Source: Deltaproteobacteria bacterium (GTDB taxonomy: Bacteria > Desulfobacterota > Syntrophorhabdia > Syntrophorhabdales > Syntrophorhabdaceae). Taken from it: 34,597 bases of DNA. Position numbers and translations under genes: made by a program. This document shows, piece by piece, positions 2,451-33,824 of the stretch (positions are counted from its first letter, which is position 1; every line of letters begins with the position of its first letter). The stretch lies in contig JAKORG010000099.1 in the NCBI GenBank assembly GCA_029777945.1, forward strand, positions 1 through 34,597. The letters run 5' to 3'. The notes below the pieces were generated by a model, which was given only the letters and a program-made list of their open reading frames with translations, had not been told where the DNA came from and ran no database searches.

Positions 2451-2637
2451 TATTGGGGTTTCACTGTTTCTTTCATGGTCTGAAAGGCTTCGTAATGCGC
2501 AAGAACAATAAACTCCTAAAACCGAAATGATAATAAAAATCAAATGGTTAAGGTAAACGAACATTGACACTGCCCATCAATATTTATATTATATAATTCC
2601 TTCACATATAGAAGAAAATTAAAAAATAATGTTATGC
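2451..2637 (+). repeat. 190-bp promoter-bearing repeat, copy A
   Basis: About 187 bp is shared with the complement of 8884-9076 (copy B). Long identical blocks include CTCCTAAAACCGAAAT, CCCATCAATATTTATAT and GAAGAAAATTAAAAAATAAT, with diverged segments between them. The block ends about 30 bp before the start codon of the gene at 2666 and contains its promoter. Copy B holds the same position upstream of the ClC gene. Confidence 0.8.
2564..2592 (+). promoter_or_regulatory. Promoter of the 2666-6826 operon
   Basis: TTGACA (2564-2569), a 17-bp spacer and TATTAT (2587-2592) predict a start near 2599 and a leader of about 67 nt. The spacing and the surrounding sequence are conserved in copy B upstream of the ClC gene, which supports function. 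Confidence 0.75.
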
Positions 2638-2665
2638 CCATAGGCAGTATGCCAGGAGGAGAGGT

Positions 2666-3780
2666 ATGAAAAAGATTACGCTTGCTGTCTTTTTTGCTTT
2701 TGTATTTTTAAGCAATGCTGCACTTGCTCAGAGAATACCCGAGCCAAGTCCAAAGGTCCATTGTAGTTACGACGGCAAGTGGTACAGTCTGAGGATTACA
2801 AAGTATATTGTAAATCGCCCTCTACATCAGGTCGGCCCCAAACTCCCCCCGCAGGATTAAAACCAGAACAACAGATGCAGCTTATGATGATGCAGAGCAT
2901 ACTTCAGCCATTTTTTAACTCTCTATTTAATTTTGGAGATCTTTTTACTCCTCCTGATACCTCAAAGCAGCAAGAAACAGAAAGGCAGAAGCAGGAAAAA
3001 TTAAGACAGGAACAGGAGGCGAAGCAAAGAGCCCTTGAGGAGTGGTTGAATATTCAGCAGGAGGTAGAAAAAACAAGAGCTGCAGAAGAAGCTAGAAAAA
3101 GAAAAGAGGGGCAAAAAATCCTAGCCAGAAGTAGTATAACCGGTAATAGTGGAGGGCTTGCACCTTTTTCCTGGAGCACTCCTCAAATGTCTTTAGCTCC
3201 CATATCCATGAAAGGTTATGAGACAAAAAATTTTAATGTAACAGAACAGCTCCTTTGTGCGGCCTATTTTTCTAAGCTCGCAGAAGGTGCTATGATAGGT
3301 GGAGATCTGGAAGGAGCCCGCTATTACGCAAATCAGATGGACAATGTTCTCCAGGGAATGCCCACTGCGATAGAGTGCAAACCCCCAAAGGATCTTACCT
3401 CTTCCATAAATACCAAAAACGCACTTGAACTCAATAGAAAATATAGCCAGATGGCAAGGCTTTATGATAAAGTCATGCCCAAGATAGAAAATTTAAGTGG
3501 TGTGATGGTAAAGCTTGACGAGGTGGTCAAGAAAAAGGAAGAATCAAGGAAAAAGATTGAAGACCTGGAAAGACAGATAGAAGAGCATAAAGCAAAAGCG
3601 CTAACGATGGATGAGCCTGAAAAAAAGGCCGAAATAGATAATTTATTAGCACAGGCCTTAGCGTTAAAAGCAGAAGCAGAGAAGGAACATCAGGAGGCTA
3701 TAGCATTAGAACAGAAACTTAACCAGGAAAAAGAAAACCTAGAAAAAGAGATCAATTATATCAAAGCTAAATATCAATAG
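2666..3780 (+). pseudogene. Exported coiled-coil protein, frameshifted near codon 38
   Basis: A strong ribosome site (AGGAGGAGAGG) precedes ATG 2666, which encodes a clear signal peptide (MKKITLAVFFAFVFLSNAALA, cut after ALA) and the start of a mature protein (CSYDGKWY). This frame ends at 2860. The protein continues in another frame from about 2779 to the TAG at 3780. Adding one base around 2781-2784 joins them as DGKWY-x-SEDYKVYC, so a single-base deletion is the simplest explanation. The body has a QQMQLMMMQ segment, a Q/E/K-rich charged helix (about 3000-3115) and a long C-terminal coiled coil (3440-3777). No enzyme domain is recognised. It is the first of three genes for exported proteins; 11 bp separate it from the next. 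Sequencing error, true pseudogene and programmed frameshifting are all possible. The GTG at 2779 has no ribosome site. Confidence 0.75.
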
Positions 3781-3791
3781 GGAGAGAAGAA

Positions 3792-5939
3792 ATGAAGATG
3801 TTTAAAATTGTCTGTTTCTTTTTTGTCTTCATTTTTCAAACAAGCTGTGCTATGACCATATCAGAAACGAGAGAAAGCTACGAAAAAATTTATAAGCTTG
3901 CTCATCAAATACCCTCCTCCTACTCTGTCCCAGAACGGTTACCTTTTACTGCAGCCATTGAAGTAAATAATAGCTTGATACTTCGAGATACTGACGATAG
4001 GGGGGACCGTTATGAATTTCAGGCTGGTCCGAGGTTAGAAGAGGCCGCGAGATTTTATCTTAAACCGATGTTTGCAGGAGAAGAAAAAAGGAACATTTAT
4101 CTCTATCTGGATGCTTATAACCTGGAAATTACCCATAAGCGCAAGGAGGGTACCATAAAATTCCTTACATGTTATGAGGTAAGTATATCAGCACGTATAT
4201 ACATTGATGCGATTGATGTGACATACGTTAGTTCCAAAGGGAGTTATTGTGCAGATGAGACAGGTTTAAAACCAAAGGAAGATGGCTTATTTATGGCTAT
4301 AGTCAAGGGCTTAGAAAATTTAAGGCCAAAAATCTATGAAGTGTTCATGTTTCCAGAAAAAGAGAAAAATGATGCTGCAGTCTTAATGCAACAAGAGCCC
4401 AATAATCCTCTTAAAGCCATCTCTTTAGCACATTTAGCCTTATTATGCAAAGATTATAATCTAGCTATATCTGCTGCCCAAAGAACAATTGAATTATTAA
4501 GAAACCCAAAGACTCTCCCCATACCTTTTGATCTCCGTTATGCTGACCGGGAGGTAATAAACAGAGACTTATCCCAGGCGTATGCAATCTTGGGCAAAAC
4601 CTATAAGGAAATTGAACAATATAATGAGGCCATCAGTAATTTAAGAAAAGCAATAGAGCTTTTTCCCAAAAATTTGTCGTATTATGAGAAATTATCCGAA
4701 GTTCTTTTGATTCAACAAAACTTCACTGAAAACATTAAACTGTGGGAAAAAGCTGTAACAGCAATTCTATCATGGTACAGTTATACACGTCTTGCCTCGG
4801 CTTATACCAAAGTGGGCAGATACAACGATGCGATTACGAGCCTTAACAAAGCTGTAGATTACTTAACTATAACAGGAATTGGGGCCTCAATATCTATTGA
4901 AGAAAACTACCCAGTTGTGAAGGAACTTCATGAGTTTGGTCCTGCCAAAAGGGCAGGAATTGAGGTTGGAGATAAGATAGTCAAAATAAACGGCCAATCG
5001 ACTAAGGGCTGGGAGATTAACAAGGTTTTCCAAAATCTACGGGGAAGTGAAGGAACCCGGGTTACATTAACCACAGAGAAAAAGGGAGAGGAATTCGAAA
5101 AGACTATTACAAGGGAAAAAATAATACAAAAAGAAGCGGCTTCTCCACATGGTTTGCGCAGTCTGGTTTATGCGATTGTGGGAAATATTGAAAAGTCTTT
5201 GAAAGATGCAGAAATGGCTTATGCTCTTAATCCTAATGATGAATATGCCAAAAGGGCTATTGGGCTGGCTTATATTCAAAAAGGCAATCCTGATGAGTCA
5301 TTAAAGATTTTGGCTTCTTCAAAAGAATACTTTGATAAACTTCTTCTTGCCCTTGCCTACGCTAAAAAGGGAAGCTTTGCGATGTCCTCTGAAATTTACA
5401 GAGATATACCAGAGGATTATCTTGCTTCCCAGAGTGTTTTTAGCCAGGACTTTAGAAGAATGGTCCTGCAAACCATGAAACCATACATTGAAGGGAAAAG
5501 AAGTCAGGTAAAAACCCTCGAGGCTAAAGGTCAGTATAAAGAGGCCTTGAAAGAATATAGCGAGCTTATCAGGTTTGCCGATGATAGAGATGCTAAGGAG
5601 ATTAGATCTCATGTAGCGAAACTTTTGAAAGAAAGGCCATATCTTCTTGAGATTCCTGAAGAGGTCAGGAAATTTGCCATAAAAGCAGAGGAGTACACAA
5701 AAGAGGGTAAGTTTATTGAAGCTGTCAATGAGTACAAAAAGGCGTTAAAAATTTCTCCTTTCCTTCCAGACCTCTACAAGGCCCTTGCCTTAAACTACGC
5801 CGGTATGAAACATTATGCCCAGGCAATAGATAATATGAAAATCTATCTTGAACTTTATCCTAATGCCCCTGATGCCAGGGCAGCAAGAGACGAGATTTAC
5901 AGGTGGGAGGTTCAGATGGAGAAGGAGGGGAAGCGATGA
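3792..5939 (+). CDS. Exported TPR-PDZ protein, probable lipoprotein (715 aa)
   Basis: The 715-residue product starts with a signal sequence (MKMFKIVCFFFVFIFQTSC), and the cysteine at residue 19 is a possible lipidation site, although QTSC is a poor lipobox. Residues 25-190 form an unrecognised domain. TPR-like helical pairs follow (about 205-350), for example YNEAISNLRKAIELFPKN. A PDZ domain lies at about 356-445 (FGPAKRAGIEVGDKIVKING), and more TPR units continue to the C-terminus. PDZ and TPR domains bind peptides or partner proteins, so an envelope scaffold or assembly role is likely, but the target is unknown. The ribosome site GGAGAG precedes ATG 3792. The stop overlaps the next start by 4 bp (ATGA), implying translational coupling with the FecR-domain gene. 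Confidence 0.85.
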   Translation: MKMFKIVCFFFVFIFQTSCAMTISETRESYEKIYKLAHQIPSSYSVPERLPFTAAIEVNNSLILRDTDDRGDRYEFQAGPRLEEAARFYLKPMFAGEEKRNIYLYLDAYNLEITHKRKEGTIKFLTCYEVSISARIYIDAIDVTYVSSKGSYCADETGLKPKEDGLFMAIVKGLENLRPKIYEVFMFPEKEKNDAAVLMQQEPNNPLKAISLAHLALLCKDYNLAISAAQRTIELLRNPKTLPIPFDLRYADREVINRDLSQAYAILGKTYKEIEQYNEAISNLRKAIELFPKNLSYYEKLSEVLLIQQNFTENIKLWEKAVTAILSWYSYTRLASAYTKVGRYNDAITSLNKAVDYLTITGIGASISIEENYPVVKELHEFGPAKRAGIEVGDKIVKINGQSTKGWEINKVFQNLRGSEGTRVTLTTEKKGEEFEKTITREKIIQKEAASPHGLRSLVYAIVGNIEKSLKDAEMAYALNPNDEYAKRAIGLAYIQKGNPDESLKILASSKEYFDKLLLALAYAKKGSFAMSSEIYRDIPEDYLASQSVFSQDFRRMVLQTMKPYIEGKRSQVKTLEAKGQYKEALKEYSELIRFADDRDAKEIRSHVAKLLKERPYLLEIPEEVRKFAIKAEEYTKEGKFIEAVNEYKKALKISPFLPDLYKALALNYAGMKHYAQAIDNMKIYLELYPNAPDARAARDEIYRWEVQMEKEGKR

Positions 5940-6826
5940 AAATACTAAAATACATCTTATTTTTTGTTTTAATACTTTCAGGGATTAAGGCTACCTATGC
6001 TCAAGACATAAATGGCTTCCTTTTGGGCATCTATTTTAAACGAGAACAGGCAATAGAAAAAATAAGACAGCTCGAAATAGAAATAAACAAAAATAAAAGC
6101 ACCATTTCACAGTCTCAGACCTTAATAGATCTTTCAAGGCAAAAGGGCAATAAAGAAGCAGAAAAGGTAGCTTTAGAAGCCTTACAGAAGGCAAAGGAGA
6201 GTCTTAAGAAAAATGAAGAGAGTCTTAACAGATGGAAGACGCACAAGATCATGCTTGATCATGTTTATACCTCATTGCAAAATGAGATAAATAATAAAAA
6301 CATAAAAGGTGTTACTTCTTACTGTTCGGGCAGGGTAGATATATTCAAGGCAAATGGGGATAAAGTGAGTTGTGAAAATGGGCTACTTGAGCCTGGAGAC
6401 ATGGTATGGACCTATGATGGAACTGCAAAGATAGAGATGCTTGGTGGAAGAGGAACCACTACAGTAGGTCCATGGTCGATCTTTAAGATGAGGGATGATT
6501 CTGAGATAGAGCAGATATGGGAGTTAATAAAAGGCAAGATTCATATGACAATTGAAAAAATAAAGGAGTCAATTAGGAGTAGGAGAGTGAATATACGAAC
6601 CGTAGAGGCTGTGTGTGCTGTAAGAGGCACTGAATTTTACATGGAAAGAAAAGAGGATATTCTCTGGCTTTACGTTATTGATGGGTCTGTTGAGGTAAAG
6701 GGCATAAAAGATGAACGAATGGTGGAAGTGTTCTCTGGCTATAGAATAAGGGTTACAAAAGACGGCTTAATAGGTGAGCCCGAAAAGATAAATCTTAAAG
6801 ATGTGGAAAGGTGGTGGGAAGGATAA
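5936..6826 (+). CDS. Exported FecR-domain protein (296 aa)
   Basis: The start is ATG 5936, inside the ATGA overlap with the upstream gene and behind GGAGGGG. It is preferred over an in-frame start 33 bp upstream because it places a proper signal peptide first (MKILKYILFFVLILSGIKATYA). Residues 25-110 form a charged coiled coil. Residues 120-285 match the FecR domain: GRVDIFKANGD, LLEPGDMVWT, TVGPWSIFKM, and RTVEAVCAVRGTEFYM near the end. Classical FecR is an inner-membrane anti-sigma partner; this stand-alone exported form has no sigma factor or TonB receptor nearby. Here the domain more likely serves as an extracytoplasmic binding module working with the TPR-PDZ protein and the coiled-coil protein of the same operon. 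Confidence 0.85.
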   Translation: MKILKYILFFVLILSGIKATYAQDINGFLLGIYFKREQAIEKIRQLEIEINKNKSTISQSQTLIDLSRQKGNKEAEKVALEALQKAKESLKKNEESLNRWKTHKIMLDHVYTSLQNEINNKNIKGVTSYCSGRVDIFKANGDKVSCENGLLEPGDMVWTYDGTAKIEMLGGRGTTTVGPWSIFKMRDDSEIEQIWELIKGKIHMTIEKIKESIRSRRVNIRTVEAVCAVRGTEFYMERKEDILWLYVIDGSVEVKGIKDERMVEVFSGYRIRVTKDGLIGEPEKINLKDVERWWEG

Positions 6827-7211
6827 AAAAGATTAAACCCTGGCATAACAATCTCATGCACAGGGAAGGTGATAAACTCGCGTGTGATGATAAGTTACGG
6901 TGCGGCATCAGCCTTTACATTTGACAGTATCACTTTTCAAACAACCCCTGTCTGATTGGGTTGAGATGAATGTATCTACTTAGCTCAAGGAAATAACTGT
7001 TTCTTTAGAAAGGTATTCAATCCGAGTCAAGGTTGAAAATATTTTTCACCTCTATTCAATAATGATTTTATGGACTATCCTCACGCATATGGTGTCTGAA
7101 AGGGTAGATTCTCCTGTATGTCATGTATCTATTATGTCCTTTTTGCCTTTTTTGGGAGCAGAAAAACTCGAAGAGAGGAAAATGCTCGAAAATGCCGCAG
7201 AATGCCACACC
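6827..7211. other. Intergenic space between convergent genes
   Basis: No gene is supported. Bases 6899-6914 (CGGTGCGGCATCAGCC) match 11854-11869 at 14 of 16 positions and probably belong to the dispersed repeat family of this window. No clear intrinsic terminator is seen for either flanking gene. Confidence 0.4.
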
Positions 7212-8864
7212 TCAGGTGCACGCTTTGTTAGCCCGCTTTTTGTTTGCAAGGATTTCATGACTGAGACATCCTTGCCGTAACATTTCCAAACCATTAGGTG
7301 CTTCTGGTGAGACCATTGCTGTGATTCGCATGTGCGCTTCAAGTCGTGTGTCCGCTTTCGGTATCCATTCGCGTTTTCCATCTGAACATCGCACAAGAAT
7401 ACATCCTGATGGAAGTCCAAGGGAACGCACTTTACGACCCACAAATGGTGCACCAGGTTTGATAATAAACTCCACCACCACAGGCTCTTGAAGCAAATGG
7501 GCTTTTCCACCGCGTTTTAAATCCCGCTCCAAAAGGGCTTCATAAATTGGTAAATCTTTTAGCAACTCAGCGACAGCATAGGCGCAAAAACAACCAACCA
7601 ACAAGGGGAGCATTTGATTGTAATTACCCGTCATTTCAACGATAAGCATAATCCCTGTCAGCGGCGCGCGGACAATGGCTGTAAAGTAAGCTGCCATTCC
7701 AACAACCGCAAAAACCGCAGGGATAGGAACAATTGCAGGAAGTAAGATATGGGCAATTTGCCCAATACCCAGGCCAATTAACGCGCCAATTACAAGCAGT
7801 GGCGCAAAAATGCCACCAGGCGCACCGGTGCTATAACTGGAAATAGTTAACAGAAAGCGGACTGCAAAAAATAATGGGATAGCAGAAAGCAATAAATCGC
7901 CCTTAAGTGTTGTTTCTGCCAATAAGTGACCACTTCCTATAAGAAACGGAGAAAACCACCCTACCAACCCCACAGCTCCACCGATGAGCACTGCAACGGG
8001 TAACATAAATCGAGCGGGTATTTTTGCGTAGATATTCAGTGCATTTAATAGACTTCGGTTAAACAACACTCCCAAAAAGCCAGCCACAACACCTAACAAT
8101 GCGAATATAGGCAAGGAAGCCAATGGTGGAACAGAGTAACTTGGAATTAAAAAGACTGGAAATTGCCCCGAACCAATTCTTGCAACAATATCTGCAATGA
8201 CTGCGGCGACAAAGGCCGCGCCAAAAACAATCGGTTGAAAGTCGCGGCGCACTTCTTCAAGAACAAAGACAAGCCCCGACAATGGAGCATTAAAAGCTGC
8301 AGCTAACCCTGCACCTGCGCCCGCTGAAATTAAAGTGAAACGTTCTCTTTCTGATACTTTTAGCCAGCGCGACACCGCGTCTCCAACCGTGCCACCCATT
8401 TGAACGGTAGGTCCTTCACGACCTAAAACCATACCGCTTCCAATGGCAATAATTCCACCAAAAAACTTTACCGGTAAAATACGTTTCCATTCAAGTTTTC
8501 GGAAACGATGAAGCACGGCTTCTAAATGGGGAATACCGCTTCCGCTTGCTTCGGGCGCATAACGCCGCGTGATGGCTACAGAAACCCCTGCTCCGAGCAT
8601 GGTAAATACCATCGGGAAAATCCATCCCAAAATCGGAAAACTATGCGCCCAAGAAATCAATCCATCTCTAATAATATCCGCACCAGTTAATGCGGCACGG
8701 AAAAGGAGTGCCACAATACCAGCAAAAAAACCCACTAACATTGCCCGTGGAAAAATCCATCGCCGTTGTTGGCTGATAGTTAGATATTCTTGAATTTCAG
8801 ATTGAACGGAATCATCCATGTTGTTAGTGAGCAAAGATAGTTTATCGTGCTTTTTTGTTCTCAT
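7212..8864 (-). CDS. ClC-family chloride/proton antiporter with TrkA-C domain
   Basis: This 550-residue membrane protein carries every ClC signature. GSGIPH is at residues 108-113. GREGP contains the gating glutamate E150. The LEEVR segment holds the inner proton-transfer glutamate (E203/E204), which marks exchangers rather than channels. GAPGGIFAP lies near 342-350. A cytoplasmic RCK/TrkA-C-like domain fills about 450-535 (PGAPFVGRKVRSLGLPSGC). Such proteins exchange chloride (or nitrate/fluoride in some subgroups) for protons; the GSGIP selectivity serine favours chloride. ATG 8864 lacks a clear ribosome site, and ATG 8819 is an alternative. A promoter in repeat copy B lies 60-90 bp upstream. 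Base composition is richer in G+C than in the surrounding DNA, which hints at transfer. The gene stands alone, convergent with the FecR-domain gene. Confidence 0.95.
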   Translation of the reverse strand: MRTKKHDKLSLLTNNMDDSVQSEIQEYLTISQQRRWIFPRAMLVGFFAGIVALLFRAALTGADIIRDGLISWAHSFPILGWIFPMVFTMLGAGVSVAITRRYAPEASGSGIPHLEAVLHRFRKLEWKRILPVKFFGGIIAIGSGMVLGREGPTVQMGGTVGDAVSRWLKVSERERFTLISAGAGAGLAAAFNAPLSGLVFVLEEVRRDFQPIVFGAAFVAAVIADIVARIGSGQFPVFLIPSYSVPPLASLPIFALLGVVAGFLGVLFNRSLLNALNIYAKIPARFMLPVAVLIGGAVGLVGWFSPFLIGSGHLLAETTLKGDLLLSAIPLFFAVRFLLTISSYSTGAPGGIFAPLLVIGALIGLGIGQIAHILLPAIVPIPAVFAVVGMAAYFTAIVRAPLTGIMLIVEMTGNYNQMLPLLVGCFCAYAVAELLKDLPIYEALLERDLKRGGKAHLLQEPVVVEFIIKPGAPFVGRKVRSLGLPSGCILVRCSDGKREWIPKADTRLEAHMRITAMVSPEAPNGLEMLRQGCLSHEILANKKRANKACT

Positions 8865-8883
8865 GGAATAAATTTTGCTGAAG

Positions 8884-9076
8884 GCAGGCTAACATTATTT
8901 TTTAATTTTCTTCTATATAATGGAGGGATTATATAAATATTGATGGGTGGTGTCAAGATTCAAGATTCATTTAGATTGAACCTTTGATTTTTATTATAAT
9001 TTCGGTTTTAGGAGTTTGTTATGCTTGCGAATTACGAAGCCTTTCTAACCATGAAAAAAACGGTGAAACCCCAATA
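8884..9076 (-). repeat. 190-bp promoter-bearing repeat, copy B
   Basis: This is the inverted partner of 2451-2637. On the minus strand it ends about 20 bp before the ClC start codon and carries a TTGACA/TATAAT promoter. On the plus strand it contains a well-placed ribosome site (TTAGGAG) before a 38-codon frame (ATG 9021 to TAA 9137). Copy A has GTT in place of that ATG, so the small frame is not conserved. It may be the decayed start of a transposase gene. Confidence 0.8.
8928..8956 (-). promoter_or_regulatory. Promoter of the ClC gene
   Basis: On the minus strand TTGACA (8956-8951), a 17-bp spacer and TATAAT (8933-8928) match the consensus exactly, predicting a start near 8921, some 57 nt before ATG 8864. 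The same arrangement is conserved in copy A. Confidence 0.8.
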
Positions 9077-9153
9077 TATTCCGAACAATGCTTCTTTCAT
9101 GGCATATTTTGAAGGCTTACGATTAAGTCATGCATAATAGCCGCAAAAAGCGC

Positions 9154-9288
9154 TTACTTTTCATAAACGCACACCTGGCAGCGACTCTTTCCATCTTTAC
9201 CTGAGTAAATTAATATTTCCATTTCTGTTTCATTTAAGGGTTTCTTAGAGCTTACTACACTGGAAAGTCTGTTCTTTTTTTCTGCCAT
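9154..9288 (-). pseudogene. N-terminal fragment resembling RhuM/Fic-type proteins
   Basis: The 44-codon frame starts MAEKKNRLSS and ends EMEILIYSGKDGKSRCQVCVYEK-stop. From memory of the family, RhuM-type virulence and Fic-associated proteins begin with a similar I-x-I-Y-x-x-x-D-G-x-x-x-x-x-V strand before the ETVWLTQ segment, which is missing here. No ribosome site is seen. Most likely the stump of such a gene; the similarity is short. Confidence 0.35.
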
Positions 9289-9451: not shown

Positions 9452-9637
9452 TTACATCATAAACACATATGCATGCAAGATAAAGCCGTATTTTTGGCAG
9501 GCATCCTTCATGTATTGTTTGAATTTTTCAAAGTCTGACTTTTGTAAGAATAATCGCATTCGTTCATTTCTTATGGTGGTGATATGATATAAGACATGTT
9601 CATATTCAATGCAAGGTGGTCTGGCCATTTTAGACAC
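9452..9637 (-). pseudogene. Truncated REP-associated (Y1) transposase, N-terminus
   Basis: The 61-codon frame contains MARPPCIEYEHVLYHITT (residues 4-21), then RNERMRLFLQ and YGFILHAYVFMM before a stop. This is the typical N-terminus of IS200-like REP-associated tyrosine transposases, in which HAYVxM is followed by a histidine motif and, about 60-70 residues later, the catalytic tyrosine. Those parts are absent and the downstream DNA does not restore them in another frame. Only the first quarter of a 200-300 residue gene remains, so the enzyme is dead. Confidence 0.8.
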
Positions 9638-9694
9638 TTTTCATAAAATTACCATAAAGCATAGGATAAGCTGATAGATTTGTCAAATGTTAAT

Positions 9695-9727
9695 AGCCTG
9701 TTTCCCAAACCCCATTTACTGTGATGC
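9695..9727. repeat. Dispersed 33-bp repeat, copy 1
   Basis: AGCCTGTTTCCCAAACC and the following TTTACTGTGATGC match 11876-11908 at 31 of 33 positions. It lies 18 bp past the stop of the transposase-tail frame, so it may be the 3' flank of that element. Confidence 0.6.
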
Positions 9728-9744
9728 ATAAATATCTTTTAAAT

Positions 9745-9990
9745 TTATTTTTGGTTTAAACATATGCAAACTGCACACACTGATTTAAGTAAACCATTAT
9801 AGGGCTCAATGTGCCCTATTTTAATCTTCTTATTTACTTTATCGGATACTCCTTGCATAGGATATTGACGGATTTTAATATCCCTTTGTGCTTGGGAGCT
9901 TTTAGTTGTTGATATCATTTTATCCAGTTCTTCTTTTCTTATATTACGCCGGATAGACCATGTAGTAGAAATCGAACTCCACTGTTTCTT
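9745..9990 (-). pseudogene. Transposase C-terminal relic, family unresolved
   Basis: An 81-codon frame without start reads WSIRRNIRKEELDKMI, QRDIKIRQYPMQG and finally YNGLLKSVCAVC before its stop. The last motif and its DNA recur at 2381-2421 in the same reading frame, which supports a once-coding repeated element rather than chance. The basic, glutamine-rich composition fits a transposase tail. I cannot name the IS family. Confidence 0.45.
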
Positions 9991-11853: not shown

Positions 11854-11908
11854 CGGTGCGGTGTCAGCCCCAGACAGCCTGTTTCCCAAATCCCCTTTAC
11901 TGTGATGC
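11854..11908. repeat. Dispersed repeat, longest copy
   Basis: This copy joins segments found separately elsewhere: 11854-11869 matches 6899-6914, 11861-11890 matches 2351-2380, and 11876-11908 matches 9695-9727 (31 of 33). The minus-strand frame across it reads GNRLSGADTAPNHKLVMTQR. It may be a fragment of a transposase or its flank. The rest of 11720-12213 shows nothing else I can support. Confidence 0.55.
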
Positions 11909-12213
11909 TGTAATAGCACCTGTTTTAACGGACACCCCCTAACCAAAATAATAGCCCATAGAGTTATTTCTGTAATTAACAGGTAAGAGAAAAAAGAACT
12001 ATGAGTCTGGTAGAAATCGTTACATCGGTTCAGAGAAGACAGTAACTTTACACGCAAGCAGAAAAAACCCTTGGTAGAAGAAGCTTAAGTAGCCGGGAAA
12101 TAGCACCTCTTTTGTGGCACAAAACTATAAGATTCATTCCAATCAACTCTTTAAGATGGAGATGTCTTATCCATGAAGGTGCCGTAAAGCTGAACCCATT
12201 TAGATTAAATGTA

Positions 12214-33444: not shown

Positions 33445-33530
33445 TTTACATTTTGAGCGAAATAGCGTCAACCCCAGACACTTAAACACTCATTCAAGAG
33501 GCATATGTGATCCATGATGAATTTAATGGA

Positions 33531-33824
33531 CCCCAAACTTATAAATTAATACACTAAAATGGTGGTAGTGTAAAATCTTTTGTGTAAATTCATTAAAGGG
33601 ATGAAAAAAGGATGTACCTCCTAAATGAAGTTTGGGAGCCTTGAAGAAGCCAGAGAATGTATAAGGAGTTGGACAACGAATGATTATAACAGGTTTTATG
33701 TTCACAGTAGTTTGGATACCTATCTCCTGAAGAATTTGAGTTAAAATACTACATTGAAAGGGAAAGAAATATTGCATTTCTACAAATTAAAACATTAAAA
33801 AGTATCCACAAAAATGAGGAGTAG
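33531..33824 (+). mobile_element. Internally deleted IS3-family relic
   Basis: 33625-33750 encodes GSLEEARECIRSWT, NDYNRFYVHSSL in one frame. From 33714 a second frame gives GYLSPEEFELKYYIERERN and ends at TAG 33824. Together these form the IS3-family orfB C-terminus (EEAREC..., RPHSSLGYLSPEEFE in intact relatives) with one frameshift. Just upstream, 33531-33557 resembles an IS3-type left end and matches 2003-2029. The element's middle is gone. Confidence 0.65.

Follow-up and report, generated by a model that had tools for sequence, protein, structure and literature searches.

The inverted repeat of about 190 bp in this contig is very probably the end of an integron platform, in which the 5′ end of an integrase gene (intI) and its leader are followed by the cassette promoter Pc and by attI as far as the crossover G^TT. 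The genes that follow it in the window (the whole stretch of 34,597 nucleotides analysed here) would be captured cassettes, and intI would have been lost by decay. As read from the sequence, the window holds two convergent, integrase-less integron remnants 6.3 kb apart, each with the order intI′–Pc–attI–cassette. Their features are collected in Table 1.

Table 1. Features assigned to the two integron remnants, in positions of the window.
Feature	Position	Strand	Basis
Truncated intI, 2.4 kb copy	2421–2506	−	tblastn with reconstituted own IntI: INWVSDCYNLLAL = LKWVSDCYNFL at 2453–2415; VLAHYEAFQTMKETVKPQ followed by a stop, from 2506
Pc, TTGACA-17-TATTAT	2564–2592	+	11/12 consensus; lines up with the Pc sites of the other copies and of relatives
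attI region; crossover G2631^T2632, core GTTATGC	2593–2637	+	Copies and relatives agree through AATAATG, then diverge
First cassette: signal-peptide protein, TPR/PDZ lipoprotein, FecR-domain protein	2632–6894	+	ORFs, Pfam; starts TTATGC, attC R″ GCATAAC is its complement
attC-like site, exported-protein cassette	6843–6900	+	R″ GCATAAC, L″ TCAT[G]CACA, L′ TGTGATGA, R′ GTTACGG
attC left half, overlapping ClC gene end/stop	7212–7233	−	R″ GGCTAAC and TGCACCTGA; right half missing
ClC-type chloride channel/antiporter gene with TrkA_C domain, first cassette of second remnant	7212–8864	−	PF00654 (E = 4.9e-101), PF02080
attI region; crossover G8893^T8892, core GTTAGCC	8887–8927	−	Same alignment, agreement to AATAATG
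Pc, TTGACA-17-TATAAT	8928–8956 (8956–8928)	−	12/12 consensus
Truncated intI, first 21 codons (MLANYEAFLTMKKTVKPQYIP), unrelated DNA after	9021–9083	+	tblastn to IntI residues 1–21

The repeat itself is real, with a similarity far above chance. A whole-genome BLAST search using 8870–9180 as the query aligns 2447–2634 on the minus strand with 8888–9080 on the plus strand at about 82% identity over 191 bp (E = 4.8e-49), and direct comparison with a repeat search gives the arms 2447–2567/8960–9080 (121 nt, 85%) and 2559–2592/8928–8961 (85%). This bears out the original prediction of a 190 bp inverted repeat at 2451–2637 and 8884–9076. A BLAST search for further genomic copies and for the genes downstream of them had been proposed as a check, and its outcome is largely the expected one: other contigs of this genome carry three more partial copies, at C91:1243–1431 (83%), C34:52933–53069 (81%) and C86:1088–1157 (90%). 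The outer 33 bp alone recur at C88:40824–40856, adjoining an integrase gene. Weak matches on C35 and C97 lie in unrelated sequence without the attI end and were discarded. Neither the repeat nor intI was found in the one same-genus genome examined, which is 90% complete. IMG/VR contains no exact match to attI; among plasmids, the 24-residue start of intI has no match and the whole protein matches only distant IntI1 (about 50% identity).

On the gene-proximal side the repeat ends exactly at 2631/2632 in the 2.4 kb copy and at 8893/8892 in the 8.9 kb copy, which refines the limit first given. In the alignment, the copies of this genome and the sites of four related genomes (G050, G020, G253 and G274) have ...TATAGAAGAAAATTAAAAAATAATG in common up to this boundary, with small differences, and the bases that follow it read TTATGC, TTAGCC, CTAGCC, TTAGCC, TTATCT, TTAGCC, TTATGC, TTAGCC, TTCGGC and TTCGGT. 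G^TT(RRRY) is the expected junction between attI and an inserted cassette. As judged from this alignment, the common end AATAATG^TT, present in all copies of this genome and in the four related genomes, is where the integron attI crossover would fall.

Beyond the boundary, and within about 10–40 bp of it in nearly every copy, there is a gene that is different each time and points away from intI. These are exported-protein genes and a ClC gene in the window, an Eco57I-type methylase pair on C34, an N6/N4 methylase with an R.Pab1 endonuclease on C86, a GAF/HD-GYP protein on C88, another methylase in G020 and short unknown genes elsewhere. Several of them are restriction–modification genes; on C91 no clear gene is left. 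Both window copies stop a few tens of bp upstream of a start codon with the promoter directed towards the gene, as had been described. Solitary Pc–attI sites before short genes, with no intI frame nearby, are seen in G253 (L084) and G274 (L085), two members of a distantly related genus of the phylum, the one that also includes G050 and is placed in a different family. The similarity between copies might alternatively be that of ordinary promoters and leaders of unrelated housekeeping genes, shared by common descent with no integron involved. Nothing beyond A+T richness points that way; the boundary that the copies share exactly argues against it, as do the intI frames and the attC-like sites, leaving this explanation virtually no chance of being correct.

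The distal end of the repeat is not a true boundary: in the 2.4 kb copy, tblastn shows that similarity to the IntI protein runs on in another frame to about 2415–2421. The reverse side had been predicted to carry a ribosome site and a short frame, as at the start of a transposase gene. An AGGAG, an ATG and the open frame MLANYEAFL...KPQYIP are indeed present in the 8.9 kb copy, while the corresponding remnant in the 2.4 kb copy has lost its start codon and contains an in-frame stop and a frameshift. The supposed transposase start is that of intI, because the frame beyond the shared end on C88 starts with MLKAYENFLNKKGNIKPQYIPYYLKW, the same kind of start as MLANYEAFLTMKKTVKPQYIP in the window, and because a full-length relative matches the integron integrase family TIGR02249 and has an IntI4 as its best solved structure. 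This relative, from G050, is 412 residues long, scores 413 bits against TIGR02249 (cut-off 265 bits), retrieves PDB entry 2a3v (V. cholerae IntI4, E = 2e-79) and has about 100 N-terminal residues ahead of the canonical part. By these comparisons, the reverse-side frame of the repeat is the N-terminus of IntI.

The intI gene on C88 covers residues 1–272 and then runs into IS DNA and the contig end, and C81 starts with IS-like DNA followed by IntI residues 266–410. Joining the two across contigs, we infer that they are probably one intI gene split by an IS. The N-terminal part, cut by the IS, scores 195 bits against TIGR02249, which is below the cut-off. An intact intI is absent from every copy in the genome; a truncated one stands beside the site at each of the two window copies, and the full-length example comes from the relative only. 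Wherever intI is retained, it lies on the strand opposite to the cassette genes and would be transcribed away from them.

The intI remnants end near codon 35 (2.4 kb copy), codon 21 (8.9 kb copy), codon 24 (C91) and codon 5 (C34); on C86 the platform remnant already stops upstream of the gene, with IS3-type DNA abutting it. Since the truncation points are different in every copy, they argue for decay and not for the end of a mobile unit. An apparent coincidence of three of them at codons 20–24, which would have corresponded to a unit end, was dropped when a sensitive tblastn search extended the 2.4 kb copy, frameshifted, to about codon 35. This bears directly on the original prediction of an IS end or MITE-like unit that inserts before genes and spreads ready-made promoters. 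The repeat is multicopy, is nearly always found before a gene with its promoter facing outwards, and has the start of a recombinase gene on its back, all of which would suit such an element; however, only one end is common to the copies and the other differs from copy to copy, no terminal inverted repeats or target duplications are seen at the copies, the recombinase belongs to the integron integrases, and attC or attC-like sites accompany several of the genes. An IS or MITE-like origin is therefore extremely unlikely. The genes appear to have come to the promoter as cassettes, not the promoter to the genes, and nothing suggests that the 190 bp move as a unit. As a whole, the earlier interpretation is partly supported.

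The promoter hexamers that had been predicted to face the two genes are present exactly as given and are the best two among 19 promoter-like sites in 7 kb. Their position and consensus suggest that they are Pc facing the first cassette, and hexamers of the TTGACA-17-TATAAT type are kept in the intI-less copies of this genome. Pc and attI together span 2564–2631 and 8893–8956, with a distance of 67 bp from the first base of the −35 hexamer to the crossover; the Pc of V. cholerae lies 65 bp upstream of the crossover (PMC8876359). The Pc–attI half and the intI leader are each about 80% conserved among the copies, neither better than the other, and for this reason we make no claim that selection keeps the promoter.

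A cassette is expected to carry at its 3′ end an attC site, and the inverse core R″ of that site should repeat the first bases of the cassette itself in reverse complement. We read the genes at the attI sites of the window as probable cassettes because the R″ of their attC-like sites complements their own first bases. In the exported-protein cassette, the GCATAAC at 6843 lies 16 bp past the FecR stop codon. The first gene of this cassette is frameshifted (the frames 2666–2860 and 2779–3780 overlap), through decay or a sequence error. The ClC cassette extends from 8892 to about 7212 and keeps the left half of its attC only. A complete, textbook attC of 72 bp is found on C88, where GGCTAAC lies at the end of the HD-GYP gene and L″ TT[G]CACCTG is matched by L′ CAGGTGAA with an extrahelical G; each of 200 shuffles folds less well (z = −3.1). 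The attC-like site on C86 reads AGATAAC...TT[G]CAGCCG...CGGCTGAA, with an imperfect R′ and weak folding, as is also the case at 6843–6900. The folding energy of the site at 6843–6900 (z = −0.14), like that of the C86 site, is no better than that of shuffles, and the support for these two comes from sequence geometry: both have R″, L″/L′ and the extrahelical G. The three attC sites align poorly to one another.

In four of the six cassettes in this genome, R″ matches the start of its own cassette in reverse complement and has TGCA 6–9 nt further on. This combined motif occurs once per 5 kb stretch (n = 4) and in 0, 0, 4 and 1 of 300 dinucleotide shuffles, counts that serve as a guide only since the TGCA part was picked after the sites had been seen. 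For the C34 and C91 cassettes neither the motif nor an attC was found. Elsewhere in the genome, C67:107306–107372 (L093) is attC-like and lies after an HNH gene that neighbours a DNA methylase gene; no attI match was found there, and it is possibly a single cassette.

From the anatomy that the sequence displays, we infer that an integron integrase would have inserted circular cassettes at attI through attI × attC recombination, and that Pc would have driven transcription of the first cassette. The arrangement would then have been frozen when intI was destroyed by IS insertion and deletion. Decay of intI is common. Five platforms in this genome are without an intact intI and retain attI–Pc before what would be the last-inserted cassette. 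The several platforms may stem either from repeated acquisition or from duplication followed by loading with different cassettes.

Within an integron origin, the attI–Pc segment could instead have been spread by the integrase as a mobile promoter, through recombination at attI or secondary sites, rather than left by platforms that were acquired or duplicated and then decayed. Known cassettes of the ΔattI type contain as much as 244 nt of attI, and recombination has been shown for some of them (PMC12901181); this genome has five copies from a single attI lineage and the one same-genus genome examined has none, which is compatible with such spread. In the ΔattI cassettes, however, the piece of attI takes the place of attC downstream of the ORF, and here it lies in front of the gene. 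Moreover, all four longer copies keep the intI start, which such recombination would not carry consistently, and their second ends differ. We consider this route very unlikely. It is also improbable that the solitary attI–Pc sites form a set of fixed promoters and landing pads, with one integrase acting in trans to load each with its own cassette; if this were true, the integron would be a dispersed multi-locus expression system and not a single array.

Several other repeated sequences occur in the window. Beyond the cassette side of two remnants, a 184 bp segment at 6969–7152 is 95% identical to C34:46538–46720, in the same relative orientation, and has only one weak third match elsewhere in the genome. 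A candidate empty site for the ClC unit, C34:46538–46912, between this segment and a RAYT-like start, was rejected, since on its right side it matches nothing more than the start of a RAYT-like gene that occurs dispersed. Remnants of the 5′ end of an IS200-like/REP-associated transposase gene (MARPPCIEYEHVLYH...) lie at 9452–9690, C34:46810 and C45:4323, and nearby, at 2379–2421, 9695–9806 and 11876–11915, there are dispersed REP-like intergenic repeats. Short matches to the ends of IS3-type elements, which have many genomic places, are located at 1986–2064 and 33508–33561. At the contig end, 1–1120 is a CRISPR array with at least 15 copies of an approximately 37 nt repeat (GCTGCAGTCCAAATCCCTAAGAAAAGGGAACTGAAAG) and spacers of 35–44 nt, some of them duplicated.

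The preferred reading, that of decayed integron platforms, places these loci close to sedentary chromosomal integrons. As in those, intI and the cassettes are divergent with Pc between them, the crossover would be at G^TT, the attC-like sites have R″/R′ and an extrahelical G where they are preserved, and the integrase of the relative belongs to TIGR02249. Unlike them, this genome has five intI-less platforms with one recognisable cassette each, and an IS probably interrupts the one long intI that it has. The CALIN elements of IntegronFinder are similar in having a cassette and attC without an integrase; by default they are reported only at two or more attC sites and attI is not searched (PMC9024848). 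Here, in contrast, attI and Pc are kept, together with one attC or half of one per window remnant. Among intI genes roughly one in three is broken, and one IntI clade is about 120 amino acids longer (Nemergut et al., 2008; PMC2426708), a length that the 412-residue IntI resembles; compared with those pseudogenes, most remnants here are cut to 5–35 codons. The attI2 site of class 2 integrons has a core, AATAAAATGTTRRRY (PMC12901181), that resembles AAAAAATAATGTTA, and it contains Pc2A, placed after intI and before the crossover, but the integrase lineage is another one and the similarity is short and A+T-rich. More than one intI is present in about a fifth of integron-bearing genomes (PMC2426708, PMC9024848). 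In the literature searched, which covered few subscription journals, we found no description of several solitary attI–Pc sites in one genome, of a 'solo attI' or of 'attI duplication'. The elements would thus be of a known kind and reflect ordinary integron biology, the number of leftover attI–Pc sites in one genome being unusual.

Outside the clinical classes, attI sites are poorly described, and comparing the natural copies found here would by itself define attI and Pc for an environmental lineage. The remnants would show how, once the integrase has gone, ClC antiporter or restriction–modification cassettes can turn into normal chromosomal genes, present in single copy and preceded by a promoter left over from the integron. 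Remnants of this sort would tend to escape searches that start from intI or from clusters of attC, and integron-delivered genes may therefore be undercounted.
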